Assembly: GCA_021234155.1 (NCBI GenBank)
Contig: JAJEKV010000008.1
Span: forward strand, 1,066,508-1,130,507
Reading direction: 5' to 3'
Length of the DNA stretch: 64,000 bases
Origin: Isoetes taiwanensis
Taxonomy: Eukaryota; Streptophyta; Lycopodiopsida; Isoetales; Isoetaceae
Shown here in pieces: positions 6,301-53,079 of the stretch. How positions within the stretch are numbered: the first letter of the stretch is position 1; each line of letters opens with the position of its first letter. The position numbers and the translations under genes were made by a program. The notes under the pieces were generated by a model that was given only the letters and a program-made list of their open reading frames with translations, was not told the DNA's origin and did not search any database.

Positions 6301-7446
6301 ACAAGGGGATTTGATAAGTCAACGACAATTTTATACATTATCCAAGAGTTCTTGAGCTCTATCTGCAGCATGAAGTGAGATGCAATCACTTTATTATAAG
6401 AAAATGTGATTGTAAAATGAGGGCACAGTGTATGGGCACAAGAAATAAATAGCATAATTGAGCCACTCCATTTGTTTGATGTATGCATGGATGAGTCGGA
6501 GAGCTTCACTACATCATGCTAAATAAAAAGTGATGGTGTTCAACATGTCATAGGAATGCATGAGATGCAACATGCTCCAATTTCACAACTAACCAGTCTT
6601 TGTGTTTGTATTTGAGAAGCCAGTAGTAATTGATTGCTGTTAAAAGGTTTTACTCTAATATTCAATACTCTCCAATTTCCACCAGTCAATTAAACTTCTT
6701 AGTGAGATTACCATTCTCATAATCTTTTCCACACTGATCAAGTTATTGATGGTTGATGTAAGCTTATTTTCAAAGTATTTCCCACAGAAACCCATCTCTT
6801 CATAATATGGTTAAGGTAGCTACTTTATATGGAGCTAAATATGGGAATGGGCTTCATAGCCAAATACAATGCATTTCAAAGATGTGACAAGCAAATCAAT
6901 CCTGCATTGAATCATTTTGCTGAGTTTGCAGATTCTCAACTGCAATTTATCATGGCATTCCAAGTGATATCAATTATACAACAAATGATTTAGTTAGAAA
7001 ACTTGAATAATAAGAGGGTTCCTGGCTAGATTTAAAATCCTTGAAAGGGTGTTAAAGACTTCTAGTTATAGGTTGCCTAGAACAGCTTCCTCCTCACAAA
7101 TGTCTGGCTTTATTTTTAGACCGAAAATAAAATGAAGACATTATGCTTCCAAAGGCCATATATCGGAAAAATGATCATTTCATCTAGAAAGAAATAGATT
7201 GTCTACAAAAGTAAAATATCGGGAATGTACCAGCTCTGCACGCACAGCCTTGGTGAAACGAGTCCGATAGGATTCCATTGCCTCATACTTGAGCTGACGC
7301 TTTCGAGCACGTTGTCTAGTAGGCGCATTATCAAAATCTCTGTTTTTACAGCGAATTCTGAAACCCACGTTGCCAGTGATGAACTTCTCTGAGAAGCTAA
7401 ATTTTGGCCTAGCGAGTATGAACTGCCCCGAGGAGCATAGCTCCAT
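327..7446 (-). CDS. UPF1/SMUBP2-like superfamily 1 helicase gene, partial, multi-exon
   Basis: The gene enters at ATG 7446 and runs off the left edge. Exons joined by frame and GT-AG borders are 7446-7231, 6171-6056, 5897-5828, 5714-5631, about 4450-3896, 3822-3744, 2012-1792, 1687-1594, 1421-1309, 921-845, 780-685 and 438-327. SF1 motifs appear in order: GPPGTGKT (3990-3967), DSNVAVDNL across the 3896/3822 junction, DEAS (1608-1597), VGDQAQLPPT (about 1362-1333) and QYRMHP across the 845/780 junction. STCVGVGDERL, SLFERL and ALAEFPSN fit UPF1-type ATP-dependent RNA/DNA helicases. The N terminus is basic and might be an organelle targeting peptide (inference). Exons 5714-5631, 4450-3896, 2012-1792 (stop at 1934-1932) and 1421-1309 need single-base corrections to stay open. 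Either the assembly has deletions or the gene decayed recently. Exon 4450-3896 has an uncertain 5' border, and an exon between 5631 and 4450 may be missing. Confidence 0.88.
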
Positions 7447-7780
7447 CAAGTTCAACGGAAAGCAAAACTTTCAGCCAGATCACAATTTGGCCACATATTT
7501 GTATCCTACCCCGTTATCAGCCCAGCCTTCGGAATGAAATCTTCCATTGAAAAATGAAGGGGAGGTCTTTCTTTTGGGTTGCCACTAGGGGGTCGCTCAT
7601 GTGGTTTTTTGGTATATTCTAAGTATATGCCTAGAATATGCCAAAAATCTCTGGCTGTTGCCAGTGAACTGTCGGTCACCTATATTGGCGGTCGTGAGAG
7701 TGTTCGAAGAGAGTGTTCAAAGCAGTCTTAGACACTCCCAATAAGATGGGGCACAACTATATCACCCCTGATTAAATCAA
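7447..7780. other. upstream region of the helicase gene with a hairpin
   Basis: This non-coding stretch lies 5' of the helicase start and probably holds its promoter and leader. It contains an inverted repeat: 7606-7621 and 7632-7647 are complementary over 16 bp with one mismatch, around a 10-base loop. No clear TATA box was found. The hairpin could be a chance structure or a remnant of a small element. Confidence 0.4.
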
Positions 7781-7798
7781 ATGGGAGTTATTAAACCA

Positions 7799-8250
7799 GA
7801 TTTGATTTTATTACTGGCTATGCCCGACACGGTGATGGCAAAGAGCCACTTAGGCTTCATGAAAATGAGAGGAAGGTATGAAGTCAAGTGGTGCTACTTT
7901 TATCTCTGTCTTAACTGGATGCAATCATGCCAAACTTGTGCAATAAGGATGCTGTTATTTCATGTTGATGAGTCATGGTATATAATCTCATCAAGTGTTG
8001 ATCATTATGCTTGTATGATTGATGTATTTGGTCGCGGCCACTTGCAAGAGACATAAGGTCCCATGAAGATGCCGCCATTTCTACCAAATGCACACGAACA
8101 TGAAGATCGCGACGCTTATAACATGTTAGAAGCGTAATTCTCGATTGCCAATACAAATGGTGCTCGAACCGTCTCCGACAAAATGATGAGGCTTCTTATA
8201 GTTGGAATTTGTTTGACCTTAGCCTCGGGCGAACATCATTAGCTTCACAA
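7799..8250 (+). pseudogene. pentatricopeptide-repeat (PPR) protein remnant
   Basis: Three overlapping frames give one collinear PPR-like protein. ITGYARHGDGKEPLRL (about 7806-7860) matches the usual MISGY-QNG-EAL repeat start. SSGATFISVLTGCNHAKLV (about 7885-7940) matches the T-F-VLxAC-H-GLV repeat. VDHYACMIDVFGRGHLQE (about 7997-8050) is the typical VEHYACMVDLLGRAG-L-EA unit near the E domain. MKMPP follows, and a weak tail reaches about 8250. PPR proteins bind organelle RNA. Only about three repeats are left, with no start and frame changes of one base, so this is a gene fragment. Confidence 0.8.
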
Positions 8251-11200
8251 AATGCCGTAAAGGTATGTTCAAAATCATCAATAACGAAAAGCTAAGCGGC
8301 ATTGCAAGGTGGTTAGCACTATTACCGCTTTGAAAGACCTTCTAGTGACCATGCCGCTATCATGTCCGGGCCGCCTACCTACCGCCGATGCTTGAAGAAT
8401 ATTATATCTTGTGATCAAATATCGTGAACTTATAAAGAACTCAACAATGATGCATCGTTATTTCATTGCAATCAGGTTTATATGGAGTTGCCTTTATATC
8501 CTTGTCGCCTAAGCTTCGTCTCAACTTGAAGGTACCTCATAGTACTATTGTTAGTCCTTTAATCCTAATATTGTACATGCTTATACAAAGAACCGGATGC
8601 TAGTGTTTCATAATTGCTTGCCCCCAGATTCACAAGACAATTGGATGTAGAAAGTTACAGCATGTTGTTACCGCAAATTAGGATGATGCAATGGGATTAT
8701 GATGTTGTATGATGCCTCCATTTATTGATGAACAAGTTAGGCCCCTCATACCACCATCAAAGAGTAATATAGGAGTCTTGTCTACAACATGTTAATTAGA
8801 TTCGTATTCATAATTCCATGAATTACAACTTTTTTAGAACTTGTAAACCGTATATCCTAATGTTTCAAAGATTCCATTTTTTACAAAGTTGTTCTAATGC
8901 TCCTTAAATTTGTAGGATGTCTCACCACCACTATAGAACCGGGTCCTCAAGAGATGGCTTGGATTAAGGTAAATGATATTAGTCTAATATAAAATGCACT
9001 TTTAGGTTTAGTATGGCATGTATGCTTATGATCTCATACTTCATTTACGTGATACTTACGAGCATATGAAATCAATTGATATTATGTGTTACAGAAACCA
9101 CTTGCCTAAGAGAGTTTCTGAATGATGAGGTTTGTCAATTCGACATGTAGCTTTCATTTTCAACCAATTACGAATTGAAGGAATTGATTCATGATTTGGT
9201 CAATAAGATCAATATGAAGCCGGTAAATAAAGGGAAGGAATATCATAGTTTAGGGATTTAAAAATGTTGATCAAAGATGATGTAAGCTTCATGGTCATGC
9301 AGATTATTCATGAAGATAATTGGGTGTAATTTCTATATATACTAGTTTAAGTGGTCTCCACAACATTGGAGAGAGTAAGGTTTTGAAGGGGTCGAAGCTA
9401 TAAATCCAATCAGATATGCTAGTCAATGGTGGTGAATTAGAATTTGTATGTTTTAGTGTAACTGCAGTGATGGAGAATATAAATCATAGTTATCTTCTAA
9501 TATACAATGGATGGCTGAGTATTCACTTCATCTTTCCATGTGGATTTTCAAGTGCTTAACTAGGAAGTATGCAATAGTGCTAATTTGAGTTCACAGCCTA
9601 TTTTAGTTGTCCCTAATGTCCATCCTTTTTTTTTAGCACGCCAAACCAAAACCAAAGCCTACCGCCTTTCTTGCAATTCTAAGCTATTCACGTCGCACCT
9701 CCAACTCAAAGAAAAATTGACATGGCATAAGTTCCTGCCATTGTATCGCCATTTTTTTCTAGATGAACGGCTAAGAAAATTAGAAAATTGCCTAAAAATT
9801 GAATATGGAGATATGGAAAAGTATGTCGTCTTCCTCCCACGCCGGCCGCCTCAGAGTCTCAATGTGTAATGAGGCAACTAACATGGTTTTACATTAGAGG
9901 AGGGTGCCCTCCTTCCGCCAGCGCTCTTCTTTGCCCACTTTTTCCCCCTTCTTCGCCAATAAGACCCTATCCCAATTCAATGTTTGCCAGATCGATGAGG
10001 ATATACTCAGCAGAGGTTATGAGGCTTGGTGCTCACGTAAAATCGCTAATGGATGTCCTAAGAACCCAAGTATAAATTTTGGTAGAGGAAGAACTGAGAA
10101 AGCACAGAATTCCGCCCCATTGCATCGGTTATCACGCCTACAAATGCCTTGAAATTTTTTTCCTAATTTAACTCTTATCTAAGATCTTTAATATCATTGA
10201 AGATGGTAGCATTGCAAAGAGTCTTGTTGCGTAAAAGACGGCTGTATTGTATGTTGATTCAACTTGTTTTGGCCCTTCATTTTGTGTAGTTGCTTTTTTA
10301 AGTTCTTTTCTTTAGCTTTGACACTTTGTACATAATGCCATGGATCTTATCGAAAGTTGTTGTTGACATGCGTTTTATGACACATTTAAATAGTTGAAAA
10401 GCATAATAAAATGTTTGGATTTAAAAGTACCATTCTGATAGAACTTTACCTTGTATCAAACTAAAACTCTCCTTTAGTGGCTAATATCACATGCTTCCGC
10501 TTTAAGAAATATCACGCTGGTGCGTGCACTAGTAATGCGTGTAAGTCTTTGCTCTTTTGAAGTTCTCGCTTTTCACTATTTTGTTGATCTAAGATTATCT
10601 AACGATTCCTATATAGGCCCTTTTTTAAGTCCGGTAATAACCGCACTAATTATTGCGTAATCAATAGACAATTGCATTAAAATTGTGAGTTGAATGCTAC
10701 CGCTAGTTATTTACGCAAAGATTTAAACGCTAAATGCTTAAATGCTTCTTAAGATAGTGTTGGCTACTAACTATTACTACTAACTGTATTGTCAAATGGA
10801 ACAAATAGCATGCTTACCAAATCAAACACGTAACATGCAACATCAACATCTTCCTCGAAATGTGTGCCTCTTCCTCGCATCTTGCTCCCCGCTCAATCTC
10901 TACCCGTATGTGCTATTCTATATCGGATGTATTACATCATTATATCTCAATGTACGTGTGTTTGCTGCAGCTTTTCATTTAATTGTATTGTCCATTTATC
11001 CCCGACCTTATAAATAAATGGCATTCTTTCCGTGGCGTAAATATGCGCTGGTTCCGGATAAAAGAGCAAGTTGTTCATATAGCACATTGTTGTGACGAAA
11101 TTCGAGTCTTGGCGCATTTGATAACGTGGTTGTCCCAAACGCTTTTATGCGTATGTGAAAAATAATGCATGCATAATGCTTTTACAAGTATGTATCAATA

Positions 11201-11408
11201 CAAACGTATTTTTACAAAAACTTTTTTTCTTTTTTTTTTTGGGGTGTGTGTGAAGGTTTCTAAATTACTCGGACATTCACCGACAAACATAAAATCATGA
11301 AAGTAGCATCTAAATTCATTTTGGGCACCCTAATCAATAAACTATTTCGCTTTTGGGCAAAAGCTTTAAGTAGATGAACAAAAATTAGAAATCTACCTCC
11401 TTGATGAG
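8251..11408. other. intergenic DNA, no gene recognised
   Basis: Mostly AT-rich. ORFs here are under 100 codons and show no recognisable domain. A T-rich run lies at about 11221-11241. The stretch ends at the ATGAG target duplication (11404-11408) of the LTR retrotransposon. Confidence 0.5.
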
Positions 11409-13017
11409 TGTGGACGGTCCAGGGAATATACACATAAATACGTATATTCCTCGGATCCAATCACCATACAAGTCTATCTTCATAGCCTTGTATACCATAG
11501 ATTGTGGCACTAGGGGCATGGCCAAGTTATTCTCATAACTTAGCCAACCATAGGTTAGAACCATTATCCACGCGGCCTTAACCTATTGGGCACCCGCCAC
11601 ACAGACTCACCCAATTGGTGCCACGTGGCATCCTAGGTGGACCTAACTTATTTAGGCCTAAACCCTAACCCTAGGCCTCTTTTCCAGCCCTAACACCCAG
11701 ACTCACCTACTGCTCAAAACCCCGCTTCAACATCGCTTGTTGGCATAGATCGGTGCAAAGAAAGCCCCGAGGGAGGTAGACTCGCTCTTGAGCAAGACCA
11801 GCATCGCGAGAGCTCCGGAGACCATGGAGGCACACCTGATCTGGAGGGAGAGCTTCAGAGCGTGTATGTAGGATAGTAGTTGTGATAGCTCATCCGAATT
11901 AGCATTCCAGCTGTGCTAGTATCTTGTATCTAGAGTAGAGCCATCCTAGAACCCGTGATTTAACATCTTGAACCCTAATCAACTAACCCTAACCATTAGT
12001 TAGATTGTATGATTAGGTTAAGATGTTCTTCTTATGATTATTCTCATGATATGATGATTATGTGATGATGGTTGATCATGTTTGCTCCTCTTGTATTGGG
12101 AAGGGGGTAGAGACCTAGGGCCATATGTAGTATGTTCCTAGAGTAGATCCCTTAGTTCCCCATTAGTTGCGGCCGTGCATTAGGAGCCCACCGGGCTATC
12201 GAGGCTATGACATGACTCCAAAGACCATACAACGGGGCCAGAGGGAATGTGGGAGGGAGATCCCCCGCCGAAAGTGGGGGCTTCGGGGATCCCATAGTGA
12301 GCTAGGCTTATGGTCGGTCACTTGTGTGGGCCGGCATGGGTCCCACCTTCCGGGCAATGGTGTCGCCTGAGTCGCAAGTGTTGGCTTGGCTCTCGCTTTG
12401 GGGGTTAAGTCGGGTACGAATCGTGGTGTCGCCACGATTCTCTAGCCACCCACGGAACCTCTAGACCACGAAAGGGAGATGCAACCCTTCCCGCCTCATC
12501 CACTGTGGAGATGCAACCCGAGTAGTCCCCCATGGGTGACGCCATGGGATTGCGTATCCTAAGGCTAGAGTCATGCCAGAGCCCGATTTAGCCCATCTGC
12601 AAAGTATGCACAGGGAGGGGCGGATGGAGTGGTCAACCCCAGCCATTGTTCTATGCCAGCCCCTTTCGCCATTGCCATGACTCGGTCTGCTTCTATCCTC
12701 GAGGCCTAGCCCTGGTCAGCCATCCTCCCCCGAAGTCCGGAAATGGGTAGGGAGCTCTCATGTTTTACGGTTTGTGGTTATCATCTTTGTATTGGTATAT
12801 GGGTGATGCACTACCCTTCGAGGTAGTATTTGTATATGTTTGATGCTAGTTCTCATGTTATCGCCTCACGTTATAGGAGCCCATAGGGGAAGGGCGCAAG
12901 ACACCTTCTCAGATATTCCCTCCCGCACTAGGGATCACCTCGGGTAGACGGCGGCCGGACGGGGGATTTCCGCCCGAGTGTACTGGCCAAGCCCCGATGT
13001 TTAGCAGGAGCGCCACA
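11409..13017 (+). repeat. 5' LTR of the chromovirus
   Basis: About 1609 bp, near-identical in layout to 22838-24473. It begins TGTGGACGG (TGTGACGG in the other copy) and ends GCCACA. It holds a G-box CACGTG (11632-11637) and a plant telo-box AAACCCTAA (11660-11668) followed by CCCTAGG. No convincing TATA box was seen near these motifs. A block rich in direct repeats of AGATGCAACCC lies at about 12477-12515. Confidence 0.93.
11632..11668 (+). promoter_or_regulatory. G-box plus telo-box in the LTR
   Basis: CACGTG at 11632-11637 is the core of the plant G-box bound by bZIP/bHLH factors. AAACCCTAA at 11660-11668 is a telo-box, bound by TRB-type Myb proteins and linked to Polycomb recruitment in plants. 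Both are conserved in the right LTR (23044-23049 and 23082-23090). Their use by this element is inferred. Confidence 0.55.
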
Positions 13018-13018
13018 A

Positions 13019-13034
13019 TGGTATCGTAGCAATG
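13019..13034 (+). promoter_or_regulatory. primer binding site, initiator-tRNA-Met type
   Basis: TGGTATCGTAGCAATG starts two bases after the LTR end. Plant LTR elements commonly use TGGTATCAGAGC, complementary to the 3' end of initiator tRNA-Met. The first seven bases match, and the rest matches with changes. It would prime minus-strand DNA synthesis. Confidence 0.75.
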
Positions 13035-13596
13035 TTCTTGGTTGACCAAGAACTAGCACCACCATAACCATGAAAGTAGTCTAACAAGCCTATAGGAGGT
13101 GTGAAATAAACATTTCCACCGGATGAACCAAAAAAATAGGGGAAAAATTTTTCTCCTAGGTAGTGGGGTCGACTTAGGTTAAGTGATGTATCTAAGGAAT
13201 AAGTAAGTCAAATTCATCTTCTAGTAAATTTGGGGTGAAAATTATGCATCTGCATCAAATTTCACCTAAAATGGGTCAAGAATCATACCAATCTGGACCC
13301 GAGTGAAAAAAAATGGTGCAAATCCATAATTAGCACTTCAAACCATTAGAAAATTCGAAAAATTTTAGGTATAATACGAATTAATACAGGATTAATACAT
13401 ATCTTAATAATTAAATAATTACTAAATATGGTGTAATTAATAAGGGGGGGCTAATAGATAGGGGTAATTATGGTGGGAGAATATTCCTAGGGACCCTCCT
13501 TTTTAAATATTTGACACCTCATTCTCTCTCTCCAACCTTCCACCTCCACCTCTCTCTTGCTCAGCCTTACGTCACCCATTTCCTGAACCGCAAGAC
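13035..13596 (+). other. retrotransposon leader ahead of the H3-like ORF
   Basis: Non-coding. The last about 95 bases before ATG 13597 are a CT-rich tract of the kind often seen as plant 5' leaders, and a TTTAAATATTT stretch (about 13502-13512) lies just upstream. It could be a subgenomic promoter, or the leader of a captured host gene. No ORF is supported here. Confidence 0.4.
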
Positions 13597-14680
13597 ATGG
13601 CTCGCACCAAGCAAACCTACAGGAAGACTGGCCCTAGGCCCACCCTCTCCATGGCGCAGGCAGCAGGGCGGCACGTCAAGAAGGTCCCCGAGCACCTTCG
13701 GCCGAGGCCAGGCGACGAGGAGTCCCCCGCCAGCAAAGAGCAGAAGCCAAGGCCTCCTTCCATGATACACCGAAAGCCCCCAGCAGCTAGCCCTGCCGGT
13801 GTACTCAGAGAACCGGGCGAAGTTCATTTCTGGCCCCTGAACCAAGCGGGAAGAAGAGGTGGAAGAACAACAACAAATGTAGGGGAAGCTGGTCCTTCAA
13901 GACTAAAGAAGAAGGGCAAGGAGAAAGTCGCTGAAAGTGGCTCTGAGGAGAGGGCCGCCAGGGAAGAAGAGGGAGCCGAGCTGAGTTGAGGCAGCAGGAA
14001 AGGAGAACTAAGAGGAAGAACGATAGGGCCTCACCGGACCGGGCCATAGAGGAGCCCCCTGAGGAAGAGGAGGCACAGGAGGGCTGGTAGTGGAGAAGAG
14101 GAGGAGGAGCAAAGATCAGACCCCGACAGCCACCCTACCCTAAGTGGGCCGAACCACCAAAAAGTGGTGAAGAAGCAGTAGGGAGGCATTCAAGGCCCGG
14201 ACAGATCGCGAATCTGCCAAAAATGGCGTATACAAGGAGTACTCCCTCCGCTGGGACGAGGTACAACGATTGGTATTGCCGCCGGAGGTGCACGGTTGTG
14301 GAGGGCGGCAGTCAAGAAGAACCAGCCCAAGCCACCCCCACCTAGACCGAAAACCCAAGAGGGTTCACCACGGGCCGAAAAAGACGCGACGCCCGTGTTT
14401 AGGGAGATTAAGCACTTCCGTGATGTGCACAAATCTCCTGATAAGGAAGGCTCTTCGAGCCGCCTCCTTAGGGAAGTAATGCGGGAGTTTCCGACCCGAT
14501 TATAGGGTTACCCCTCTAATGACCCGGCCCCCAAGAGGTCAGCCGGGCGTAGCTGGTGCAGCTCTTCGAGGAAGGAACCTCTCAGGTAATCCATGCTACC
14601 GTTAGTCACCCTCATCCAAGGACATTCACTTAGCAATGAGGATCTCAGCAGGGAGAGGCCCTAGGCCTCAAATTTTGTAA
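13597..14680 (+). pseudogene. histone H3-like protein carried by the retrotransposon
   Basis: ATG 13597 opens a frame starting MARTKQTYRKTG. Residues 1-6 of histone H3 (ARTKQT) are exact, lysine 9 is kept in an RK pair, and an HVKK...RPRPG segment mirrors H3 VKKPHRYRPG. The frame stays open to 13989 through a Lys/Glu/Pro-rich linker. Core: 14398-14502 encodes FREIKHF...SRLLREVMREFPTRL, which aligns without gaps with H3 LREIRKY...QRLVREIAQDFKTDL. One base out of frame, 14532-14606 gives QEVSRA-stop-LVQLFEE...IHA, matching QEAAEAYLVGLFED...IHA. One further base out of frame, 14618-14665 gives KDIHLAMRI, matching KDIQLARRI. Alpha-N, alpha-1, alpha-2 and alpha-3 are therefore all present in order with native spacing. 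Two deletions and two stops break it. Loop 1 has canonical H3 length, which argues against a CENH3 origin. Confidence 0.85.
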
Positions 14681-15947
14681 ATTTTGTTAGAAAAGTTAAA
14701 ATTGCATGTAATCAAGTTTTTCTTATTAATATAAAAGTTATTTTCCCTCGTAATTAGAAAAGTGTTGGATGCTTGAAATTTAGGAAATAGAACCCAATTG
14801 TGGTAGAACTCTTCATAGCATGCTTAGGAATACCCTAGAAATCATAACTACAACGGTAAATTTGGCAAAAATCATCAAAAAGCAAAAATTAGGCAACCGG
14901 GGTGAGACCGCCAATGGCCTCTGCAAGGTGACGCTGGATGCTTCCAGCGCGGATTTACCCTCGGACGCCCCTAAAACATGCTTTTAGATGTCGGGCTTTG
15001 CTCAAAATAAGTTGCTAGTTAGCTTAGAATCGCCCAATTAGCCATGTTAGCATCTTGAAATTCCCAAAATCACCAAAAATGGCTCCAAAATAGGCCAACC
15101 GGGTGAGACTGGCGCCAAACGCTGTCTCAAGGTCCGACGCTGAGGCCATCCGCATATGATTCACCCGGGTCAGCCCATTTTTGACCCAAATTAGCCAAAT
15201 TTGATCCAACAAATTGCCATGTAATGTTTCTTGCTTTGTTTTGCTTAAGTTTGCACTTCATGGTAGTTCATTTGGACACCTGCAGCCATAGAACCAAGGC
15301 CGCCTTAGGTAGGTACCTTTTTGCACTAACCCCCGAGGTCACCCATAGTCTATAAAAATAGGTCTCATTTGCCATTTTTCCTTCTACAGAATCAAGCCCC
15401 AGCCCTTTAGGCTTATTTTCTCTCAAACCCCACCATCCTTGCAAGCCATTTTCGCACCCCCTTTCCTACTCAATGGCTTCAAAGAACTTTGAGAGGTGGT
15501 ACAATGTCGCAAGCCATATCCATCAGTTTCCTCAGATCAAGCCTTCTCTGTTCACACCACTTGTTTGATCTCAGATGCAACTCACTAGAACACCCTACTA
15601 CACGCATATTATGTGCCAATATGACCAGCAAGTCCCCGCCTTGGGAAGTTAGGATCCCCTCAGGGGAGGGAATTGGGTTTCTCTTGAGTCACTCACCCAA
15701 GCCTTAAGTCGAGAGTTGGGAGGATCCAAGGGCAAGAAGCAACTATGGGATAGGACTAGGACCATGCCCGACATATGACCTGCGACATAATAGGCATAGG
15801 TACCTTTCGGCCCGCATGCAGCCCTGCCCTTTTCATGCACTATAAGTCAATCAACAAAGTAGGGGAACCTTCGTTCAGCCCTTAGACTTAGCCACTTGAT
15901 ACCTCGTAGGGCCCGTGATCAAATCCTCAATATAGAGTCCTCCTCCT
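14681..15947 (+). other. spacer with two diverged repeat copies and a TATA-like site
   Basis: 14880-14940 and 15085-15145 are diverged copies of one unit (AGGCAACCGGG-TGAGAC...CAAGGT...GACGCTG), about 200 bp apart. A TATAAAAATA site at 15351-15360 is followed by a pyrimidine-rich leader, so a second transcript could start ahead of the ORFs at 15.9 kb. ORF 15489-15707 (72 codons) has no recognisable domain. Confidence 0.4.
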
Positions 15948-16383
15948 ATGAATACCATGGCACGACGCCGTGGGCACCATCTCTCGCAGATCTACTGGTA
16001 CTACGAAAGCAAATTAGGGGAGCAAAACCCGCAATGGGAGAACAGGGAGGCAACAAGGATGCAGAGGTACATGTCGAGGCACGACGACGACATCGAAGAG
16101 CTACCGAGCCTCCCGCCGCGGCATCACAAATTGGCCGATAGTCATCGACGGGGAGGAGTACATTTTGCAAACAACATCCTCAACTTGTCGTGATTGCCGT
16201 GAATGTGGTCTTCGAATCGACGAACTCTTAGGCATGATAGCACATGGCAAGAGCGCAGACTTCATCGACTACTCATACCAGGAGATTCCAAGGGAGCTAG
16301 CGGAGAGACACTCTTATGCTGGGGAGACAATGTCGGACATAGCAGCCTATCGCCAGATAAGGGAGATCTATCGACAAAGATGA
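15948..16383 (+). CDS. unidentified retrotransposon ORF, pre-gag, frame-broken
   Basis: Two open stretches in different frames (15948-16193, 16165-16383) read like one protein. The first is basic (MARRRGHH and an HDDDIEEL segment), and the second holds RIDELLGMIAHGKSADFIDY. I do not recognise it. It sits between the H3-like module and gag, where some Ty3/gypsy lineages carry extra ORFs. It could be the N-terminal part of a long gag or an accessory protein. Confidence 0.4.
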
Positions 16384-16395
16384 ACCTATCATCTC

Positions 16396-16866
16396 GTGAG
16401 GAGGAGTTCCAAAGCAGATACAGAGCACACTCTACAAGCCGTGGAGGGGCCCAAGCTCAAGCCGACCCGGGCCGAGCCAGAGTATGAGGGAAGGGTCCAA
16501 AGAAGATCAACTTGGACAACGCAACCAAAGATGTGGAGAGATCATGAAGATCTTATGGCAGTGGATGCCTACGGCAAAGCAGCTCAAAGGAAGGGCACTG
16601 GATCGCGAGGTATAGGGAAGGGCACGGCACTTCGCTACTATCTTCCAGCCCTCAGCCAAGGGCAAATGATAGTTTTCCACAAGGAGTTCAGCCCAAGGGG
16701 AAGAATCCGTGGCACTTCTCATAGCGCCTTCGGGCTTGAGATTCAAGATATACCCCATGCCGACCACATTATCCTTTTCAACAGGGCCGTCAAGGCCCAT
16801 TGCCTCGACTTTTTTGCGAGAGGGCACCTTAGGGATGCAACACTTTCAGTGGGTAGCAAAGAATAA
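16396..16866 (+). CDS. unidentified 156-codon retrotransposon ORF
   Basis: Open from ATG 16396 to 16866. Its second half contains RGIGKGTALRYYLPALSQG and DIPHADHIILFNRAVKAH. No domain is recognised. Length and position suggest it continues the product of 15948-16383 after a frameshift. The minus-strand ORF over the same bases is probably a shadow. Confidence 0.4.
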   Translation: MRRSSKADTEHTLQAVEGPKLKPTRAEPEYEGRVQRRSTWTTQPKMWRDHEDLMAVDAYGKAAQRKGTGSRGIGKGTALRYYLPALSQGQMIVFHKEFSPRGRIRGTSHSAFGLEIQDIPHADHIILFNRAVKAHCLDFFARGHLRDATLSVGSKE

Positions 16867-17640
16867 AGACCAGAACTTCCGTTTAACCTGAGATGGCCCG
16901 AAAGCACTTGAAGGAAGATCGACAAGGAACATCTTATAAAACCCCAAGCAAAGGCCTCCGATTCGTGGATGTCAAGAACTTCTTCGTGCTTTCGAGGCCA
17001 TTGAATAGTTGTAAAATTTTCTTAAGTTGTGTGCTAAATGTTTTCTTATACCCATTGTGCTAAGACATATCTACCCTATCATGTAATCCTTATGTATTAA
17101 TGGCTATTAACCTGCTTTTAAAATGCAAAGTTTTGTATGATTTCTTTATAACTAATAAAGATAATTCAATTACAAGTAAGATTGATCAACATCTAACCCA
17201 AATAACATGCATTGATGATCAATCCTTGCAGCAAGGAACTCAAGTGCAGGATCTCAAGACCAGCACCGACAACGCAATTGGGTACCAAGGAATTTGTTTG
17301 GCAGAGAACAAGAAGACTTCGAGCAGGATATGTCACCAGAGGCAGTCAACGCAAGGTTGGTGCAGATGAGGAACCAGATGCAACACCTCATCAACTGGGC
17401 GACACCCCTGATGAACGCACATAAAGATGGTCCTCCACCTCCACCTTGTGTTCCCGAGAGGTGACCAAGGCCCCAGCAGAAGGGGAGGGCAAACTGTGGG
17501 GAACGCCGTGGATAGGAGAAGGAAGAGAAGAACCAGAGCCCATCATCATCTAGCTCCAGCCATCGACATTGTTCTTCCAGTGGGGACAGCTTCTAGTCTC
17601 GACAACAACCACACATCTAGAGTAAGGAAAAGGGCAAGAA
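16867..17640 (+). other. pre-gag spacer
   Basis: An AT-rich tract at about 17000-17180 separates the preceding ORF from gag. ORFs 17100-17369 and 17427-17786 overlap in separate frames; only the end of the second (from about 17690) looks like gag. Confidence 0.35.
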
Positions 17641-17689
17641 AGACTGATGACTATCGAGAAAAGGTGGATAGTGCTATGAGCAACGATGG

Positions 17690-18460
17690 GAAGACAAGGA
17701 AGTCGGGCCAGTTCTCGGGAAAGACAGATCGCATGGAGGCTGAAGCATGGCTTGATGAAATGGAAGAATTTGGTAACTCCTACTGATGAAAGACAAGGAC
17801 ATAGGGAAAGTTGCTACAAATAACCTTATTGGACCGGCAAGGATCCGTGGAAGGGATATGCTAAGTCTAACAAGCTGAAGAGGAACAATTGCGTTTTAAG
17901 ACCTTCAAAGAAGGCTTTCTCCCGCAGCAACTATGTGCCAAGGTCTCATACTAGTAGATCCGATCCAGCTTTTACAAAGTGAATCGGTAGCTTATCGCTG
18001 GCTAAGTATACCGAAGAATTCATGAGGCTTAGGCCCATGTTCCCCGAGTCTCGTAAAGGCAAGCAAAGGATACCTACATTGAGGGGTTGAACAACAATAT
18101 CAAGAGGCTTGTGAGAGAGCAATCAACCCAAGGTCAGTTGCAGGGCAAGATAAAGCTATAAGTTTGGAGGAGGCACCAAAGAACTCCAAAGCAGAGAAGC
18201 AAATAACCTTCGGGGGTAAGAGTTCGATTAAAATATCGGGGTAAGCAATCAGCGCCACACCATCGAGGCCAAAGCAGAAGGTAAGAGTCGAACAAAGCTT
18301 TTGGGGACCGTGAAGCCACGTAATGCATCGGGGCAGTGCTTTAAGCGCCTCCTAGATAGTCTGCGGGCCAAGGAGAAGAGACAAGAATGCATTGAGAAAA
18401 AGTTATGCTTCAGTGCTTCCAGCCGTGGCACCGAACACATGATTGTCCATTCGGCCATGC
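17690..18460 (+). pseudogene. gag: gag: capsid remnant and CCHC zinc knuckle
   Basis: RKSGQFSGKTDRMEAEAWLDEMEE (about 17698-17766) matches the start of Ty3/gypsy retrotransposon gag (FSG-d-AE-WL-ME). SLAKYTEEFMRL (about 17998-18030) matches the L-x-eF-x-L capsid segment. After one base of frame correction, 18407-18452 gives a CX2CX4HX4C nucleocapsid knuckle (CFQCFQPWHRTHDC) with Trp where Gly usually precedes the His. Gag packages element RNA. At least three frame breaks are present. Confidence 0.75.
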
Positions 18461-18639
18461 AAGCCTTGGCCAGTGTAACTTATGGATTGGGATTCCCAAC
18501 AGAAGTTTTATCAAGACGACGACCAAAGCAGAGGCCCGTGACTTCATAGATGGTGAGTGCCACATATGTGCAAACATTGAGTCGTGATATTGAGAGTCAC
18601 CGATCATCATCATAGGGCCGATGGGATCATAGATAGTAA

Positions 18640-18710
18640 TCCATATGTAGTCCTCATAGATACAGTAGCTCTCACAATTTTGCATCTCCTAGGCTTGGTC
18701 TGCCTTAATG
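18640..18710 (+). pseudogene. retropepsin-like protease active-site remnant
   Basis: At 18650-18690 the bases read VLIDT, then after one missing base SSHNFAS, reproducing the aspartic protease motif (VLIDTGSSHNF-type) of Ty3/gypsy elements. It would cut the gag-pol polyprotein. The flanks are too broken to outline the domain. Confidence 0.6.
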
Positions 18711-19259
18711 AAGAACAAGGTATTGAAGTCTAAGCCAAGGCCAAAGAGTTATGGCAAACCACGCCATTCTACACACAAAGGGCGTGAGAATCATCTTTGA
18801 CATAGACCTTAGTGGGGCTAAGGGCCGATGGGAGCGAAGTCATGGATATCGAAATACGATCTTATAGTGGGATGGAATTTTGAAGCCAGCCCAAAGCCAT
18901 GATTGATTGGGCGACCGAACGAAAGTCACCATGACGGCACCGCATCGGCAAAGAAATTGATAGTGAAAGGTAAGAAGCTAGATTCTCCCATGCAAAGGTA
19001 TCTCTTTGAAGCAGCCTAAGGAAGAGTATAGAAAGGAATAAGGTGGACTACATCTTGAGGATGGAATTAGTTGAGCCGGGCAAGGTGATGGAAGTGACCC
19101 AAAGGGAAATCAATTGCCCGTGCAAATAGCAAGGCTTATTTCCTCATTCAAGGATGTATTCCCTGATGAAATCCGCAGCCGCCACCTTATAGGGTGTGGA
19201 ATGTGAGATCACGCTGGCTCCGTGATGGCCTACCAAGAAGGCGCATATAGAATGAGCAC

Positions 19260-19720
19260 CCCGTAATTGATTGAGCTCAAGAAGCGCCTTCCGGAATTGC
19301 TTGAGCTTGGCTTTATAAGAGCAAGTGTGTCTCCTTTCGAGCACCTATACTCTTTTGTGAAGAAGAAAGATGGGAGCTTAAGAATGTGCATAGACTATCG
19401 CCACCAATAAGCGCATTTATAAAGAACAAATATGCATTGCCAAGGGCGATGACCTAATGGACCAGCCACAAGGAGCAAAGGTATTCTAAAATTGATTTGA
19501 GGTCGATACCATCGATAAGAATAAAAGAAGAGGATATCCATAAGACCGCTTTCAGAACGCTGCAGATGGTCATTTTGAGTTTACAAGAATGGCCTTTGAC
19601 TATCGAACGCCCAAAGAACGCTTATGCGCCTCATGAACGACATCTTCGTGAGACTTCTTGGATGAGTTTGTTATTGTCTTCTTCGATGACATTCTAATCT
19701 ACAAAGAAGTCCCTCAAGGA
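19260..19720 (+). pseudogene. pol: Ty3/gypsy reverse transcriptase remnant
   Basis: [16 protein letters not shown]...[17 protein letters not shown] (about 19290-19410) is the standard fingers region. FSKIDLRS-type sequence with RIKEEDIHKTAF follows at about 19483-19555. The catalytic box is FVIVFFDDILIYKE (19664-19707), with FFDD in place of the usual YxDD. The order and spacing are those of Ty3/gypsy RT, with frame breaks at about 19410 and 19560. Confidence 0.85.
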
Positions 19721-20089
19721 GCATTGTCAACATCTCGTGAAAGTGTTGGAGAAGTTGAGACGCCATCTTGCATGGGAAGCTCTCCAAATGCCACTTTGCA
19801 ACAGTCCGAAAGTGGAATATTTGGGGCATGTTGTAACATCCGAGGGAATTTCCACAGATCCATCTAAGATAGAGGCAATAGTTGATTGGCCACCCAAGGA
19901 ATGTGGCGTAAGTGAGAAGCTTTCAAGCGGATATTACGTAAAGTTCGTGGAAGGACTTTGCTAAGGGGCGCCCCTTTGCCTGACCTCACCAAGGCCAAGA
20001 AGATTAAGGATTGACTAGTCATTGGTTAGAAAGTCCAAGCTTCCTTCGAGAAGCTTAAGGAGGCCTTAACAACAAAAAGACAGTGCTTG

Positions 20090-20470
20090 TTCTCCTGATC
20101 CGAGTAAAGATAAATTGGTGGCAACAGATGCAAGTAAGATAGCAAATGCAGAGCAGCCTTGATGCAAGAAGGAAGGGTAGTCACCACGACCGAAGAAGAT
20201 GAACGACGCCGAAAGCAACGCTACCCAACCCATGATCGAGCTGCTAGCCATTGTCGTGGCATTAAGGATATGGAGGCATTATTTGTCGGGAGGAAGTTTC
20301 AGCTTGGATATCGATCACCGAGTCCGCAGATCTTTTACCCAGCCACCCTCAATTTAAGGCAAAGGAGGTGGATGGAATGTCTTGAGGAGTATGATTTTGA
20401 TATTGTATATAAGCCCGGCAAGCTTAATGTTGTAGCAGATGCCCTCTCCAGGAGACCATTTCAGACAAGA
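20090..20470 (+). pseudogene. RNase H domain remnant of pol
   Basis: DKLVATDAS (about 20105-20140) holds the first RNase H aspartate. ELLAIV-type sequence, then LNLRQRRWMECLEEYDFDIVYKPGKLNVVADALSRR (about 20350-20456) is the well-known end of the Ty3/gypsy RNase H domain, with the last Asp in ADALSR. It would degrade RNA in the hybrid during reverse transcription. Confidence 0.85.
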
Positions 20471-20639
20471 ACGCATTGTAATGCGATTTCCACTCTTTCG
20501 AGTGAGTTTGGCAAGAAGATTGGGGAGTCCTTGCCAACCGATGTGGACTTCAAGGAGGTGTGGGAAAGCCTCTCCAAGGAAGCCAGAACAGATAAAGAGC
20601 GGGAAGCCTTCAAGCATTATAAGAAGGAAGGCAACCTGT

Positions 20640-21790
20640 TGTATCACAAGCATAAGTTGTGTGTGCCCGAATCATCAGGAATAAGGAAGCTAATTCTTCA
20701 TGACACACATAACAGCCCAATAGCAGGGCATGCTGGCTTCATGAAGACCTATTTCAAGATTCGGTAGTTACTTCGCCAGGAATGAAGAGGCGATAACCCA
20801 GCATATATTCGATTGCCGCTATGTCGCAGACCAAAGCGAGCAAAACTCGGATTCCGTGTGCTTTAGAGCCATTGGGGTGCCAAATGCGGCGGGAGGTCAT
20901 AAGCATGGATTTCATTACAGGTTCCCTAGAACTCTTCGAGGCAAGGATGCATTGATGGTTGTCGTGACAAGTTATCTAAGATGGCACATTTTGTGCCTTG
21001 CAAGACCACCGACACCGCATTAGATAATCGCCAAGTTATTTGTAAGAGAGATTTTTAGACTCCATGGCATGCCTCGGAGATAATATCCGATAGAGATTCT
21101 AAGTTTATGAGTGCCTTTTAAGCAGATCTCTTTAGCACCATTCAGATCTAAGCTCTCCATGAGCACGGCATATCATCCCCAAAACAGATGGCCGACGGAG
21201 GACGAATCTGGATCATTGAAGACATGCTTCAAGCTATGTGTGGAATAAAGCAATCCAAGCGGGATGAGTACATCCACTTGGTGGAATTCGCCACAATAGT
21301 GCTGCCAAGCAAGAGTCATCTCGATGTCTCCGCTTATGGTAAATTACGTACCAAAGGCTTAACCCCTGACACCGCACAACTCGTCGAAGGTGGAAGTATC
21401 CCAGCAGATGTTAGGGGATATGCAAAGCAGCTTAGTGGAAGAAGTAAGGGGTTACTTATTGGCAAGCAAGAAGCCTGCGTAGAGTGTAGCCGACAAGCAC
21501 AGGACCGTAAGAGAGTTCAAGGTAGGCGAGATAGCTTTGGTTGAAGATCAAGGTGAAGCAAGCCAAGCTTCGGATTGGGAGTTGTAAGAAGCTTGCCCCT
21601 AGGTGGGCTGGTCCGCTCAAGATTTTGGAGAGAGGGCTCAAGCCTACAAGTTGGATCTTCCTACCATCTCAAAGTTCACAAGGTCTTCCACGTAAGTTTA
21701 TTAAAAAGGCACAATCCTAACCCCGAGGAGGTTTTGGATACTCCAACCTTGTTGGAAATGACTGAGGAGCAAGTAGAAATAGTACCCTAA
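20640..21790 (+). pseudogene. integrase: zinc-binding, catalytic core and C-terminal remnants
   Basis: ILHDTHNSPIAGHAGFMKTY (about 20693-20752) is the HHCC finger start. MDFITG (20909-20926), a frame-broken DRDSKF box (about 21090-21110) and AYHPQ (about 21170) are core motifs around the D,D,E triad. VHKVFHVSLLKRHNPNP (about 21670-21720) is the usual C-terminal strand of gypsy integrases. It would insert the cDNA. Several one-base breaks disrupt it. Confidence 0.82.
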
Positions 21791-21833
21791 TTACTTCTGA
21801 TAAGTCATTCAAGAAGACTAGGAGGTCTCAGCC

Positions 21834-21900
21834 TCCCAATATTTGGTTAAGTGGAAGCACTTGCCCGTGGAAGATGCATACGGGTATTGAAGCAAGATTT
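21834..21900 (+). pseudogene. integrase C-terminal chromodomain remnant
   Basis: SQYLVKWKHLPVEDA (21834-21878) matches the YLVKWKG-LP-x-EDATWE segment of retrotransposon chromodomains. After one base of correction the next residues read TW and LKQDLEKQYP. Chromodomains of chromovirus integrases bind methylated histone tails and steer insertion. This one lies in the same element as the H3-like module. Confidence 0.7.
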
Positions 21901-22059
21901 GGAGAAGCAATACCCGTGAGTTTATGAAGGAGTTTGATGGGCGAAGTCGCCTCCGACTTGGTCGACCTCGACTTTGCCGTGGTTAGCTAGTATGTTGTTA
22001 GTTAGTTTTAAGCCCCGGGCGATGCATTCTAGTTAATAGGGTGCATGTGCCGTAACCTT

Positions 22060-22390
22060 GATCGTGGTGGGCGGCGATGGGATACGCTTTTAGGCATTCT
22101 CTAGGCCACACGCATTAAGAGGTGCACATGACCATTAGGGTCATGTGAGTGAGGAATGAGGCATGGTGGGCGATGATGGGACATCGACGGATGATCTCTA
22201 TGCCACGATGCGGGTACGCACACCCGGCCGTAGGAGGGTCATGGTGAAGGTTAAAGTGATCATGCGGCGATGGGATCGTGGAGACGCCCCAGCTTCAAAA
22301 CCCGTGGGGCATGATGCACTAGGGGTACTTTTCACCGTAACCGAAAGTACAAGGTAGCACTGATCATGGGCGGCGATGGGAGCATCTTAA
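22060..22390 (+). repeat. about 97-bp tandem repeat, four diverged units
   Basis: A core close to GGGCGGCGATGGGA recurs at about 22072, 22168, 22263 and 22365, spaced about 96-101 bp apart, with weaker similarity between the cores. It lies in the 3' untranslated part of the retrotransposon, upstream of the polypurine tract. Confidence 0.6.
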
Positions 22391-22827
22391 TGATCCTTAA
22401 GCTCAAACCGAAAGGGCCATGATCTTGGGCAAGGTAGTAGGACAACCTTGAGTCAAAGAGTTCTACTCAAGGAGGTAAGGGGGGTGGTCCCCTAAACCAC
22501 AAATTATTAACTAAACTAACGTAATGTGCTCCTTTTGCGTGCAAGTAGAAGGTGGACTTCAACTAGGAGCGATTACAAGAAGATAGGGGAGCCATAATTT
22601 AGATTATGAACCCTAATAACTCTTACAATAATGTTTTGAATTATCGTAAGAAATAACCGCGGTTAAGGCTATATAATTTTGTATAAGTACAAATATAGCC
22701 TAAATTTTGACTTGAACTAATAAAACTTGATTACTATAATAAACTAAAGGTTATGACATGTTGTTGCTTGTGCAGTGCATAAGGTAGGTTCGTCACCTTA
22801 GCGCAATGCCGGGACAAAGATTGTCCT
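22391..22827 (+). other. 3' untranslated part of the retrotransposon
   Basis: Non-coding and increasingly AT-rich towards the 3' LTR. Nothing recognised beyond the purine tract that follows. Confidence 0.4.
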
Positions 22828-22837
22828 ATGGGGAGAA
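22828..22837 (+). promoter_or_regulatory. polypurine tract
   Basis: ATGGGGAGAA directly abuts the 3' LTR start TGTGACGG. A purine run in this place primes plus-strand DNA synthesis in LTR retrotransposons. Confidence 0.8.
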
Positions 22838-24473
22838 TGTGACGGCCCAGGAATATACGCCCGTCACGATATTCCCCGATCCGGCACCATACAAGTCTAT
22901 CTTCATAGCCTTGTATACCATAGATTGTGGCACTAGGGGGCATGGCCAAGTTATTCTCATAACTTAGCCAACCATAGGTTAGACCATTATCCACGGCCTT
23001 AACCTATTGGGCACCCGCCACACGTGACTCACCCAATTGGTGCCACGTGGCATCCTAGGTGGACCTAACTTATTTAGGCCTAAACCCTAACCCTAGGCCT
23101 CTTTTCCAGCCTCTAACACCCGAGACTCACCTACTGCTCGAAACCCCATTTCAACATCGCTTTTGTCGTGGCATAGACTCAAAGAGCCCCAGGGGTAGAC
23201 TCGCTCTTGGAGCAAGACCAAAGATCGCGAGAGCTCCGAGACCATGGAGGCACACCTGATCCGGAGGGAGAGCTTCGTGAGCAGGTATGTAGGATAGTAG
23301 TTGTGATAGCTCATCCGAATTAGCATTCCACCGTGTGCTAGTATCTTGTATCTAGAGTAGAGCCATCCTAGAACCCCTCAGATTAACATCTTGAACCCTA
23401 ATCAACTAACCCTAACCATTAGTTAGATTGTATGATTAGGTTAAGATGTTCTTCTTATGATTATTCTCATGATATGATGATTATGTGATGATGGTTGATC
23501 ATGTTTGCTCCTCTTGTATTGGGAAGGGGGGTAGAGACCTAGGGCCATATGTAGTATGTTCCTAGAGTAGATCCCTTTAGTTCCTATTAGTTGCGGCTCA
23601 GGCATAGGAGCCCACCAGTGCTATCGAGGCTATGACATGACTCAAAGACCATACAACGGGGCCGAGAGGGAATGTGGAGGGAGGATCCCCGCCGAGTGGG
23701 GGCTTCGGGATCCCATAATGAGCTAGGCTTATGGTCGGGTCACTGCAGGGGTCGGCATGGGTCCGACCTCCCCGGGGCAATGGTGTCGCCCAGCCTCTGA
23801 GCCGCAAGTGTTGGCTTGGCTCTCGCTTTTGGGGTTAAGTCGGGTACGAATCGTGGTGTCGCCCACGATTCTCTAGCCACCCACCTGAACCTCTAGACCA
23901 CGGGAGGGGAGATGCAACCCTTCCCGCCTCATCGGACCCGGGAGATGCAACCCGAGTAGTCCCGATGGGTGACGCCATGGGATTGCGTGATCCCGAAGGC
24001 TAGAGTCATGCCAGAGCCCCGATTTAGCCCATCTGCAAAGTATGCACAGGAGGGGCGGATGGAGTGGTCAACCCTAGCCATTGTTCTATGCCACCCCTCG
24101 CCATTGCCATGACTCGGTTCGCTTCTATCCTGAGGCCTAGCCGGTCAGGTCATCCTCCCTACGAACCCGGAGCCGGGTAGGAGCTCTCATGTTTTACTTG
24201 CTTGTGTTTATCATCTTTGTATTGGTATATGGGTGATGCACTACCCTTCGAGGTAGTATTTGTATATGTTTGATGCTAGTTCTTACGACGTGTTATCGCC
24301 TACTGCTATAGGAGCCCATAGGGGAAGGGCGCGCAAGACACCTTTCAGATTCCCTCCCCGCACTAGGGATCACCTCGGAAAGCGGGGTAGACGAAGGGCC
24401 CGTAGGCCGATGTTGAGCCTGGACGGGGATTTCTGCCGAGTGTACGGGCGCCGATGTTTAGCGTGGAGCCACA
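22838..24473 (+). repeat. 3' LTR of the chromovirus
   Basis: About 1636 bp, collinear with 11409-13017. It begins TGTGACGGCCCAGG and ends GCCACA, followed by the ATGAG duplication at 24474-24478. It keeps the G-box (23044-23049) and telo-box (23082-23090). It differs from the 5' LTR by many one- to few-base indels, often in runs of G or C. Confidence 0.93.
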
Positions 24474-26700
24474 ATGAGCCTATTATTTGCCTATCTGTGG
24501 AGGATGCTATCCAAGATCATTAGGTGGCTAAGAAGCATTCAAGGAAGCAAGCAAGACAACCGAACATGATTTGGGGTCTTCACCTTGTCATCTCAGGCCA
24601 TGATCGCCTACTCCGTCCGAGCGGCATTTAGGGCAAATGAGAAACGTATGAATGGAAGAAAAAAGAAGACTTACCTAAGATATTAACAAATATAATATGT
24701 TATATTAAAAAAAAAAAAAGCAAGGATAAAAAAACTACTAAATGTTTGACCAACGTTTTTATCATACATATATAATATGTTTGTTACGTAAAATACGTTT
24801 GGTATATGTAAAATACGCGTATTTATACAACACTGGATTTGAGTCTTGACAACTCATATGGATTAAGGGGTTGTAAGCTGCCTTCAGCCGCATTTGACAC
24901 TGACTTCAACCTTATGTTGGTAGAAGGTTCAAGATCATTTTCATATCTCCAACTTATCTAACTCATGTAATTATTATTGGCAAGATGCTTTGGCATATTC
25001 TGTGTTTCGGGGGGCAAAAAATAGCACTGTTAAAAAAAGGAAAAAAATTCACTCAGCGCCAGCGCCACATTCTTTCTCTGATCTATCTTATGGATATGTG
25101 CAGACAGGTGGTAGGATCACAAACAGCCAGAACATTTTATGGAGTAGCATTAGAGAGCGGGGCAATCAATAAATTGCAATTGAATCTTCACCAATTAGGC
25201 ATTCCCAAGTTTAATAAAGTACTTTTATCAAGATTGGAATTAAGTCCTCTTAATAGGTAATCGCAAGTGTGAGAAGTTTTTAATTGAGTCGGGTTGAGTT
25301 ACGTGAGTTGCTATATGCCCATTAATATAATTTGCTTAGAAACGGAGCAAAATATTCATATAATTTCTTAAGTGCCATGCTCGTAAAAATTGATCCGTAA
25401 GCTCTTTGGTCAAATTAATGGACAAGATTTCATTTATCAATTCGGCAGTCCAATCCGTTGCACCATTGCTTTGTAAGTGATGCCCGAGGTTGAGTGAACA
25501 TAGCTCCAAAAAACATAAGAACAACAAAAATAGTTGCACTATGGCCAAATTGTTTGCATGCATTCCCAGAACTTGCTTTATGCCACCATTTATTTGTTGG
25601 ATTGGAGACAATTGAATAAGGGCATTGATGGAGTAGTCAAACACGTCATAGTCAGAAGCTCAATAGTACATTGCCGTTAATGTAGTAAGTGCAAAAAATC
25701 CATGCCTGGATGAATAAGAGGCGCCACATTTGTGATCCATGCCTCCTTTGTGATTATGTTATGCTCTGTAAGGGATCTGAAAAAGGTGCTTTGGTTTTGA
25801 ACTTGGGTATGGATACTCATAAGCTTTCTCTATCTTGGACTCCATGTTCGCATGATGCACACAAAGATTGTATCCTATATTCACAATTCTTTAGTCTATG
25901 TTATTCAATCTATATTTTATCATCTACTTTTGTGTACAGCGGTTTGAGGCTGTTGATCGATGGCAAGAACACGCAAAAATGGTATGTGTAGTAAATCTAT
26001 ACTCATGCAGGTTTCAAAAAGCTAGACCACCTTTTTACTCGTCTCTAGCACAAAAGGTATGGGCCTGATGCTTGAGATAAGCCTCATCTGTGATCTTGCA
26101 TCCTCTCATATGGTTTTTTTCACGAGGGGCGGTGTATTATAATTTGTTTAGAAATTAAAGCAGTCATGCAAGATAGTTCAGACATGCTAGCACAGAAGGT
26201 ATGGACCAGCAACAAAATGACCAGATAACATTATATCATACCTTCTGGTCATCATGATCAAATTTTATCATTTTGTTGGTTATATGTTGGCAGCCTGCTG
26301 TCACAGGTGGAAGTAGATAACTCATTAGAACCCCTTTGAAGCGAGGGTATGCATTGGGGGTGGTGTGGAGATTATAGAATGCCAATGACAAACCCAATGA
26401 TACTATGGCAGGTTGAGATTTGGTTGCAATTTGTTAAACCAATTAATAAATCTGCTCAGAATATGATCAATTGTTTGAAATGGCATTTCAATTCAATAAA
26501 AGATCCTTCTATACGATTGAATTTGATTCTCAATTGAAAATAAAGATCCATGTGGATAGGGGTGGATATGAAATTTATGTGAGATGAAAGATATGGTCAA
26601 TGCATGATATCACAACTTAAATCTGGATGTTGAACTGGTAATGGTCTCATAATGTTGTATAGTAAGGCTGGACAATCTCATAACATTATATGGTAAAGCT
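24474..26700. other. intergenic DNA, no gene recognised
   Basis: AT-rich, with an A run at about 24707-24719. ORFs 24985-25260 and 25689-25991 show no domain. An imperfect inverted repeat (AACAAAATGA near 26212 with TCATTTTGTT near 26269) encloses about 50 bp. Confidence 0.45.
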
Positions 26701-52470: not shown

Positions 52471-53079
52471 CGGGAACCCCCACTATGCCCGGCCCCTCGC
52501 GCTCGGTTGAGACTAGATTATGGCGGTGAGAGGACTACGCCGAGATGCTCATGGGCGCCCCCCGGTAATTACTGGGACCTCCACACTAGAGCGGCGAGCC
52601 GGACCGGTGACTTCGCTATTGCGGGATCACGGCCGACGGTGCTTTTAGCGAACCCCGCGTCGCCGTCGGGATTAGCAACATTCCGCGATAACCGGGATGG
52701 TTTGATGCGAGTGTAAAGAATAGCGGCGGCACCGTCCCACGATGCGGATCCAGTACCCGCTTAGGGGCCACCACAATACCGCCCATCCGAAGGGAGACAA
52801 AGGCCGGTTACCTTCCGAACATCGGGGGAGATGTTCTACCTGCTGGACACTTATCCTCGAACCTTTTGACGCGGAGAGTGTTGAGAAGATAGCCAGCCTA
52901 CAGGGGACATCACACCGAGGGGAACAAGAGACCCGCACGGCTGACTCTATGACCCGCCCGGGGGCAGCGTCACGCCCATACCCCCCACAGGGATGGCCCC
53001 CATTGGTTCCTGGGAGGAGGATGTTGAGGAGGGCCCCAAGAATCCACCGGGCTAATGGAAGGTACCGACCTCTGATAAT

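Follow-up and report, generated by a model that had tools for sequence, protein, structure and literature searches.

A predicted histone H3-derived protein is encoded ahead of gag in an abundant chromovirus family of the quillwort Isoetes taiwanensis

Chromoviruses of grasses (Poaceae) offer the closest described parallel to the locus reported here: Steinbauerova et al. (Genetica, 2011) reportedly found extra 5' open reading frames (ORFs) in these elements that are partly similar to histone H3. By that account the grass elements share with the quillwort element its chromovirus type, an extra ORF in the 5' region and the H3 similarity itself. The quillwort case differs in its lycophyte host, in whole tail-linker-fold proteins with open copies and measured dN/dS, and in having a second family whose N-terminus is different. 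H3 similarity in chromovirus 5' ORFs is reportedly, then, already known, and the statement in a preliminary description of this locus that no plant retrotransposon with such a cargo had been described was too strong. What is new here is a full tail-linker-fold protein, evidently under selection, in a quillwort, plus a second family of H3-bearing elements.

Fungal hAT DNA transposons also carry H3-like genes, in tens to hundreds of copies (PMC3538342, PMC6710886), and the N-terminal tail insertions of the Pyrenophora proteins are a further likeness to the quillwort protein (PMC3538342). The fungal elements are DNA transposons whose copies in Pseudocercospora fijiensis were inactivated by RIP (PMC6710886), whereas the quillwort element is an LTR retrotransposon with an ORF apparently under purifying selection. 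Orchid Ty3/Gypsy elements carry an AlkB m6A demethylase ORF for which a role against host control has been suggested; these too are Gypsy elements of plants that have retained an extra ORF of host origin, but one encoding an RNA demethylase, and they have Tat features. In the same publication, the section on 121 angiosperm genomes describes no histone among the added domains, of which it does not name all 15 (PMC9289625). In the REXdb survey, plant LTR elements often bear extra ORFs, which are of heterogeneous kinds, and tRNA-Met primes most chromoviruses (PMC6317226), and according to a Selaginella chromodomain survey lycophyte elements can bear type II chromodomains (PMC3350952); the quillwort element shares all three traits, and a histone ORF goes without mention in the accessible portions of both surveys. 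The paper describing the Isoetes genome does not use the word 'histone' in its main text (PMC8566536), and a literature search of titles and abstract openings among the matches listed, with few subscription papers covered, returned no plant retrotransposon with a histone ORF.

The window analysed here is a 64-kb stretch of the I. taiwanensis genome, of which positions 11409-24473 are an LTR retrotransposon with TG...CA LTRs (Table 1). By tblastn its parts run 5' LTR, H3L (the H3-like ORF), ORF-B (a second extra ORF), gag/protease, reverse transcriptase, RNase H, integrase, chromodomain, 3' LTR, and Pfam searches over sister copies likewise give the order gag-PR-RT-RH-IN with a chromodomain at the C-terminus of integrase. 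A public protein search with the RNase H-integrase piece of the window found 633 relatives, the best of them 74% identical over 63% of the query; nothing was found in the viral contigs or in the prokaryote contigs searched. Elsewhere in the window, 55877-56629 has a weak match (22 bits, cut-off 24.5) to a non-LTR retrotransposon endonuclease domain, and 52000-54900 is GC-rich (57% at 52-54 kb) and holds long open frames, with no Rfam match and, in two pieces tried, no Pfam match.

Table 1. Coordinates of the retrotransposon and its parts within the window.
Feature	Position	Strand	Evidence or remark
Target-site duplication ATGAG, left	11404..11408	.	read directly
5' LTR (TG...CA)	11409..13017	+	pairs with 22838-24473, 90.6% identity over 1546 columns; ends by comparison
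Primer binding site, imperfect initiator-tRNA-Met type	13019..13030	+	TGGTATCAGAGC at this place in three sister copies
H3L: H3-like tail, linker, H3 histone fold; frame broken in window copy	13597..14668	+	
H3 histone-fold part of H3L	14380..14656	+	frameshift-aware score 113 vs shuffle maximum 50 (1000 shuffles)
ORF-B, second extra ORF, without known domain	15473..16852	+	tblastn with sister copy, E 6e-64
Gag and protease	17219..19013	+	tblastn with L037, E 4e-68; PF03732 and RVP_2 in L037
Reverse transcriptase	19078..19925	+	tblastn with L036, E 1e-38
RNase H and integrase	20030..21403	+	tblastn with L032, E 4e-142
Integrase C-terminus, SH3 and chromodomain	21324..21975	+	tblastn with L038, E 4e-27; PF00385 44 bits in L038
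Polypurine tract GGGGAGAA	22830..22837	+	read directly
3' LTR	22838..24473	+	paired with 5' LTR
Target-site duplication ATGAG, right	24474..24478	.	read directly

The H3-like ORF that the preliminary description had placed at 13597..14680 is real. It opens with MARTKQTYRK, and a collinear H3 core runs onward to ~14656. When H3 was compared by tblastn with all 64 kb, the top three HSPs fell here in H3 order (13597-13704, 14368-14502 and 14532-14597), at modest E values of 0.03-0.04 against 1.1 for the next-best HSP in the window. Frameshift-aware alignment of the core (40/93 residues identical) scored 113, more than twice the shuffle maximum (dinucleotide shuffles) and well over 56, the highest score elsewhere in the window (708 pieces, both strands); the tail of the window copy, at 58 against a shuffle maximum of 54, is weak by itself. 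A second H3-like match at 45.2 kb (score 56), barely above shuffles and in a seemingly repetitive stretch, was judged to be chance. The histone profile search that the preliminary description had set as a test did not refute it, although the window core passes only when read through: single-frame hmmscan and PDB searches of the window ORF pieces returned no histone match, but the core pieces joined by X, in frames picked with H3 in view, reached PF00125 at 27.9 bits (cut-off 26.4, E 3e-6) and H3 chains in the PDB at E 4e-11. Two public protein searches with the broken H3L sequence of the window found no relatives. Independent proof of the likeness is provided by the 15 open sister copies elsewhere in the genome.

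That the frame of the window copy is broken was correctly described, but not as three frames separated by two single-base shifts. Aligned in a frameshift-aware manner with the open copy L003, it has 284/360 residues identical, 1 stop and 35 frame shifts, a number affected by the frame-shift penalty, and its first frame departs from the family sequence after ~45 codons. In 4/4 LTR pairs (window, L031/L032, L033/L034 and L037/L038) the differences between partners, counting gaps, are concentrated no more than 2 bases from CG/CHG sites; per column, the rate is 0.26 near such sites vs 0.04 elsewhere in the window pair, and 0.15-0.21 vs 0.015-0.028 in the three others. The many shifts and few stops, together with this clustering, suggest that the small shifts of the window copy are largely consensus errors at methylated cytosines in a nanopore assembly. 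We infer that the clustering fits such errors better than deamination alone, with the cause not proven, since the difference rate rises with local GC too. The assembly was made from Illumina, Nanopore and Bionano data (PMC8566536). Real decay surely contributes to the broken frame. Both LTR dating and frame-break calls may be unsafe in this assembly, and LTR divergence was left unused as a date.

Hundreds of H3L copies are present in the I. taiwanensis genome (1,658,258,908 bases in 1110 contigs searched), whose Rubisco small-subunit exons look unlike those of grasses. With residues 1-130 encoded by the window ORF as query, the best 150 of 1804 candidate places all had E <1e-15, and an exact back-translated MARTKQTYRK pattern matched 275 times, its reversed control 0 times; both counts are lower bounds for the family. 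The 30 best-scoring loci were fetched, one of them being the window copy, and 15 of the 29 others contain an open H3L ORF of 360-369 aa, a share biased upward by drawing on the best-scoring loci. The predicted protein of ~365 residues consists of the H3-like start MARTKQTYRK, a charged linker of ~230 residues and a histone fold with H3 spacing.

The H3 derivation of this cargo, as originally described, is clear from the open copies: PF00125 is matched at 93-103 bits (cut-off 26.4) in 5/5 tested, and a PDB search with L003 returns H3 at E 9e-31. Within the fold, L003 shares 59/86 residues with host H3 and L015 shares 58/86, and both keep 11/11 of what we take to be the DNA-contact residues and 10/11 of what we take to be the H3-H3' residues. 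CENH3 is the familiar case of a divergent H3 fold whose function differs despite the kept fold. H3L resembles plant CENH3 in its divergent H3 fold and long variable N-terminus; unlike CENH3, however, the H3L family has H3 loop-1 spacing and a MARTKQT start, with no CENH3-type loop 1 insertion in the 15 open copies, and the window copy is nearer to canonical H3 (score 118) than to CENP-A (90) or AtCENH3 (78). Descent from CENH3 was rejected on these scores and on the H3 loop spacing. In the tail, A1-R2-T3-K4-Q5-T6 and R8-K9 are kept, and residue 7 is Y in 29/30 loci. The K14-K27 stretch is missing, and a VKK resembling K36-K37 comes next; the canonical pattern ARTKQTARKS...KAARKS is therefore not found in H3L, even though K4 and K9 are retained. 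The one exception at residue 7, L028, has A and a canonical MARTKQTARK start instead of YRK, perhaps a more ancestral tail or a reversal.

The sequences indicate that an abundant Ty3/gypsy chromovirus family has the gene for this H3-derived protein as its first ORF after the 5' LTR. H3L starts ~570 bases past the 5' LTR end in each of four sister copies examined at length; integrase or reverse transcriptase domains lie downstream in 4/4, gag is found by Pfam in 2/2 tested, and every pairwise DNA alignment among the four continues across the gag region. The domain Chromo (PF00385), matched at 29 and 44 bits in two of them, upholds the original assignment to the chromoviruses. LTR pairs, 5-bp duplications (TGGTG, GCTTG, AGAGA) and tRNA-Met primer sites could be read in 3/4 sister copies, and only part of the LTR pair aligns in the fourth (L035/L036). 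Both the cage aromatics of a chromodomain and A7 of the H3 tail matter for H3K9me binding. The chromodomain of this element keeps 1/3 cage aromatics, judged by eye against the HP1 motif, and in three copies the primer site is of the tRNA-Met kind rather than Tcn1-like self-priming, so that it does not qualify as a type I (H3K9me-binding) chromodomain. With 1/3 of the cage and A7 replaced by Y, it is unlikely that an H3K9me-marked tail docks in the classical way on the chromodomain of the element itself; of the ideas in the preliminary description, this is the least likely version.

That description had also supposed that a genuine module would recur in other family copies with dN/dS below 1, and both are found. 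An integrase-chromodomain query was used to draw the best 150 of 22,193 candidates in the genome, and these were compared with 215 H3L starts (the 150 scored places plus 100 of the 275 exact matches, overlaps removed). A listed start lies 5-15.5 kb upstream on the same strand in 29/150 (the query's own element included), 22 of these 29 at 7.5-7.9 kb, against 1/150 at the same distance downstream and 0/150 on the opposite strand. Restricted to contigs up to C1007, for which every exact-pattern match is listed, the figure is 10/44 integrase matches with an H3L start upstream. The H3L lists being incomplete, sequence was fetched from where H3L would be expected for the first eight integrase matches lacking a listed start, and 7/8 hold H3L sequence, mostly in several frames. 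No full-length open H3L occurs in the fetched stretches of these eight: L053, which is partly covered, shows the last 90 H3L residues only; L051 is rearranged, with H3L residues 73-359 behind ORF-B sequence and a 408-residue open frame that begins in ORF-B; and the fetched stretch of L055 has no H3L. H3L appears, on these sequences, to be a regular part of the chromovirus family, often broken.

Purifying selection evidently acted on H3L during the spread of the family: pooled over 105 pairs of the 15 open copies, dN/dS amounts to 0.117 across the whole ORF (residues 1-40, 0.062; linker, 0.135; fold, 0.081). Taken over copies, this ratio reflects selection that lineages experienced in the past, when they were active. 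One of the open copies, L030, has a locally aberrant stretch ahead of the fold. Low dN/dS at high synonymous divergence is not explained by the choice of best hits. For the pair L033/L037 the values are 0.095 for H3L, 0.072 for ORF-B, 0.178 for gag and 0.336 for the integrase end. ORF-B, of ~460-505 residues between H3L and gag (6365-7879 in L033, 6404-7786 in L037), thus looks to be under strong purifying selection in this one pair; it has no Pfam match in two open versions and no NCBIfam or significant PDB match in one. The 5' cassette of this pair (H3L and ORF-B, 4271-7870) is 57-78% identical per 400-base window with dS 1.4-2.8, and gag (8271-9870) is 90-97% identical with dS 0.13, as if 5' cassettes had been swapped between elements. 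There is no such step in L031/L037, and the tendency is opposite in L033/L035.

A canonical H3 query revealed a second family of H3-bearing elements. The best 150 of 9022 candidates comprise 15 host H3 genes (96-98% identity) and 135 others (71-86%), many of the latter within open frames at least 400 residues long. The four of these 135 that were read (L045-L048) have in common an N-terminal region that is unlike that of the first family and has no Pfam match. Their H3 fold agrees with host H3 at 86-89% (74-76 of 86 residues) and matches PF00125 at 139-141 bits in the three tested. One of these ORFs is traced into a chromovirus: at L046/L050 it is followed downstream by another ORF, gag, protease, reverse transcriptase, integrase and a chromodomain (33.7 bits), with no LTR repeat inside the two stretches fetched. 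Compared with host H3, the L046/L050 H3 has saturated synonymous sites and dN of 0.105-0.117, which speaks for long purifying selection. In a tree of 24 H3 cores, family 1 forms a clade (100/98), as does family 2 (88/92). Since the MARTKQT start is absent from the four family-2 proteins read, a role based on the tail cannot be common to both families; the fold, not the tail, is their common denominator.

We hypothesize that H3L is a selected, element-encoded H3 that joins chromatin on element DNA, softening silencing or guiding integration, a reading that in our estimate has about an even chance of being right. The protein would be made from element RNA and then enter the nucleus, where its partners would be host H4 and either a second H3L or a host H3, and where it would bind DNA as nucleosomal H3 does, most likely forming or joining chromatin on element DNA, be it incoming cDNA or new insertions. 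Given the reader and writer chemistry of H3 tails, a histone with A7 replaced and K14-K27 lost may be poorly handled by the H3K9 and H3K27 systems. Neither silencing mark would be readily placed on the altered tail, which would still look like a K4-type tail free of modification, and a histone of its own could let the element soften or delay silencing, or guide integration. In a bolder form, possible but doubtful, element DNA would be packed with H4 and its own K4-end H3 so as to be unreadable as K9/K27 heterochromatin, and the 5' cassette of H3L plus ORF-B would be an exchangeable chromatin module of several chromovirus families.

The first 40 residues, the most constrained part of the protein, are N-terminal and separated by a long linker from the fold, as might be expected of a soluble decoy that stays outside nucleosomes and occupies H3-tail readers, writers or histone chaperones, thereby protecting the element against silencing. 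The DNA-contact and H3-H3' residues, which are kept, would be of no use to a decoy, no such tail exists in the four family-2 proteins read, and we think this role unlikely. Less likely still is that H3L helps integration or nuclear entry by travelling with the cDNA-integrase complex, its fold binding DNA and steering the complex to chromatin, perhaps via the type II chromodomain. H3L-type ORFs do occur with chromodomain elements of two families, and a chromodomain without two of three cage aromatics (by eye) makes another partner plausible, but synonymous divergence of 1.42 vs 0.13 in one pair implies that the coupling of H3L to gag-pol is loose.

Gene capture by plant LTR elements is documented (PMC7264820), and transposon-borne H3 copies have been inactivated in P. 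fijiensis (PMC6710886), so H3L might have been a captured host H3 message carried without function; this is highly improbable and already contradicted by a dN/dS close to 0.1 in both the fold and the tail, with synonymous divergence high, by the presence of H3L in most sampled copies and by the keeping of an H3 fold in two families. Finally, although no single frame of the window reaches the histone model and its shifts are many, the chance that its resemblance to H3 is accidental or comes from a nested H3 pseudogene is negligible, being refuted by a score far over shuffles and by open homologues at the same place in sister elements.

Retrotransposons are usually regarded as targets of histone marks; here an H3-like protein, full-length and apparently selected, belongs to the regular equipment of one family, and elsewhere in this genome an almost canonical H3 fold is joined to a different N-terminus in other elements. 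With H3L as a chromatin protein, a retrotransposon may contribute to making, or masking, the chromatin around it. The finding opens to direct test whether a mobile element can construct, imitate or alter chromatin of its own, and by what means the plant distinguishes the histone of the element from its own.
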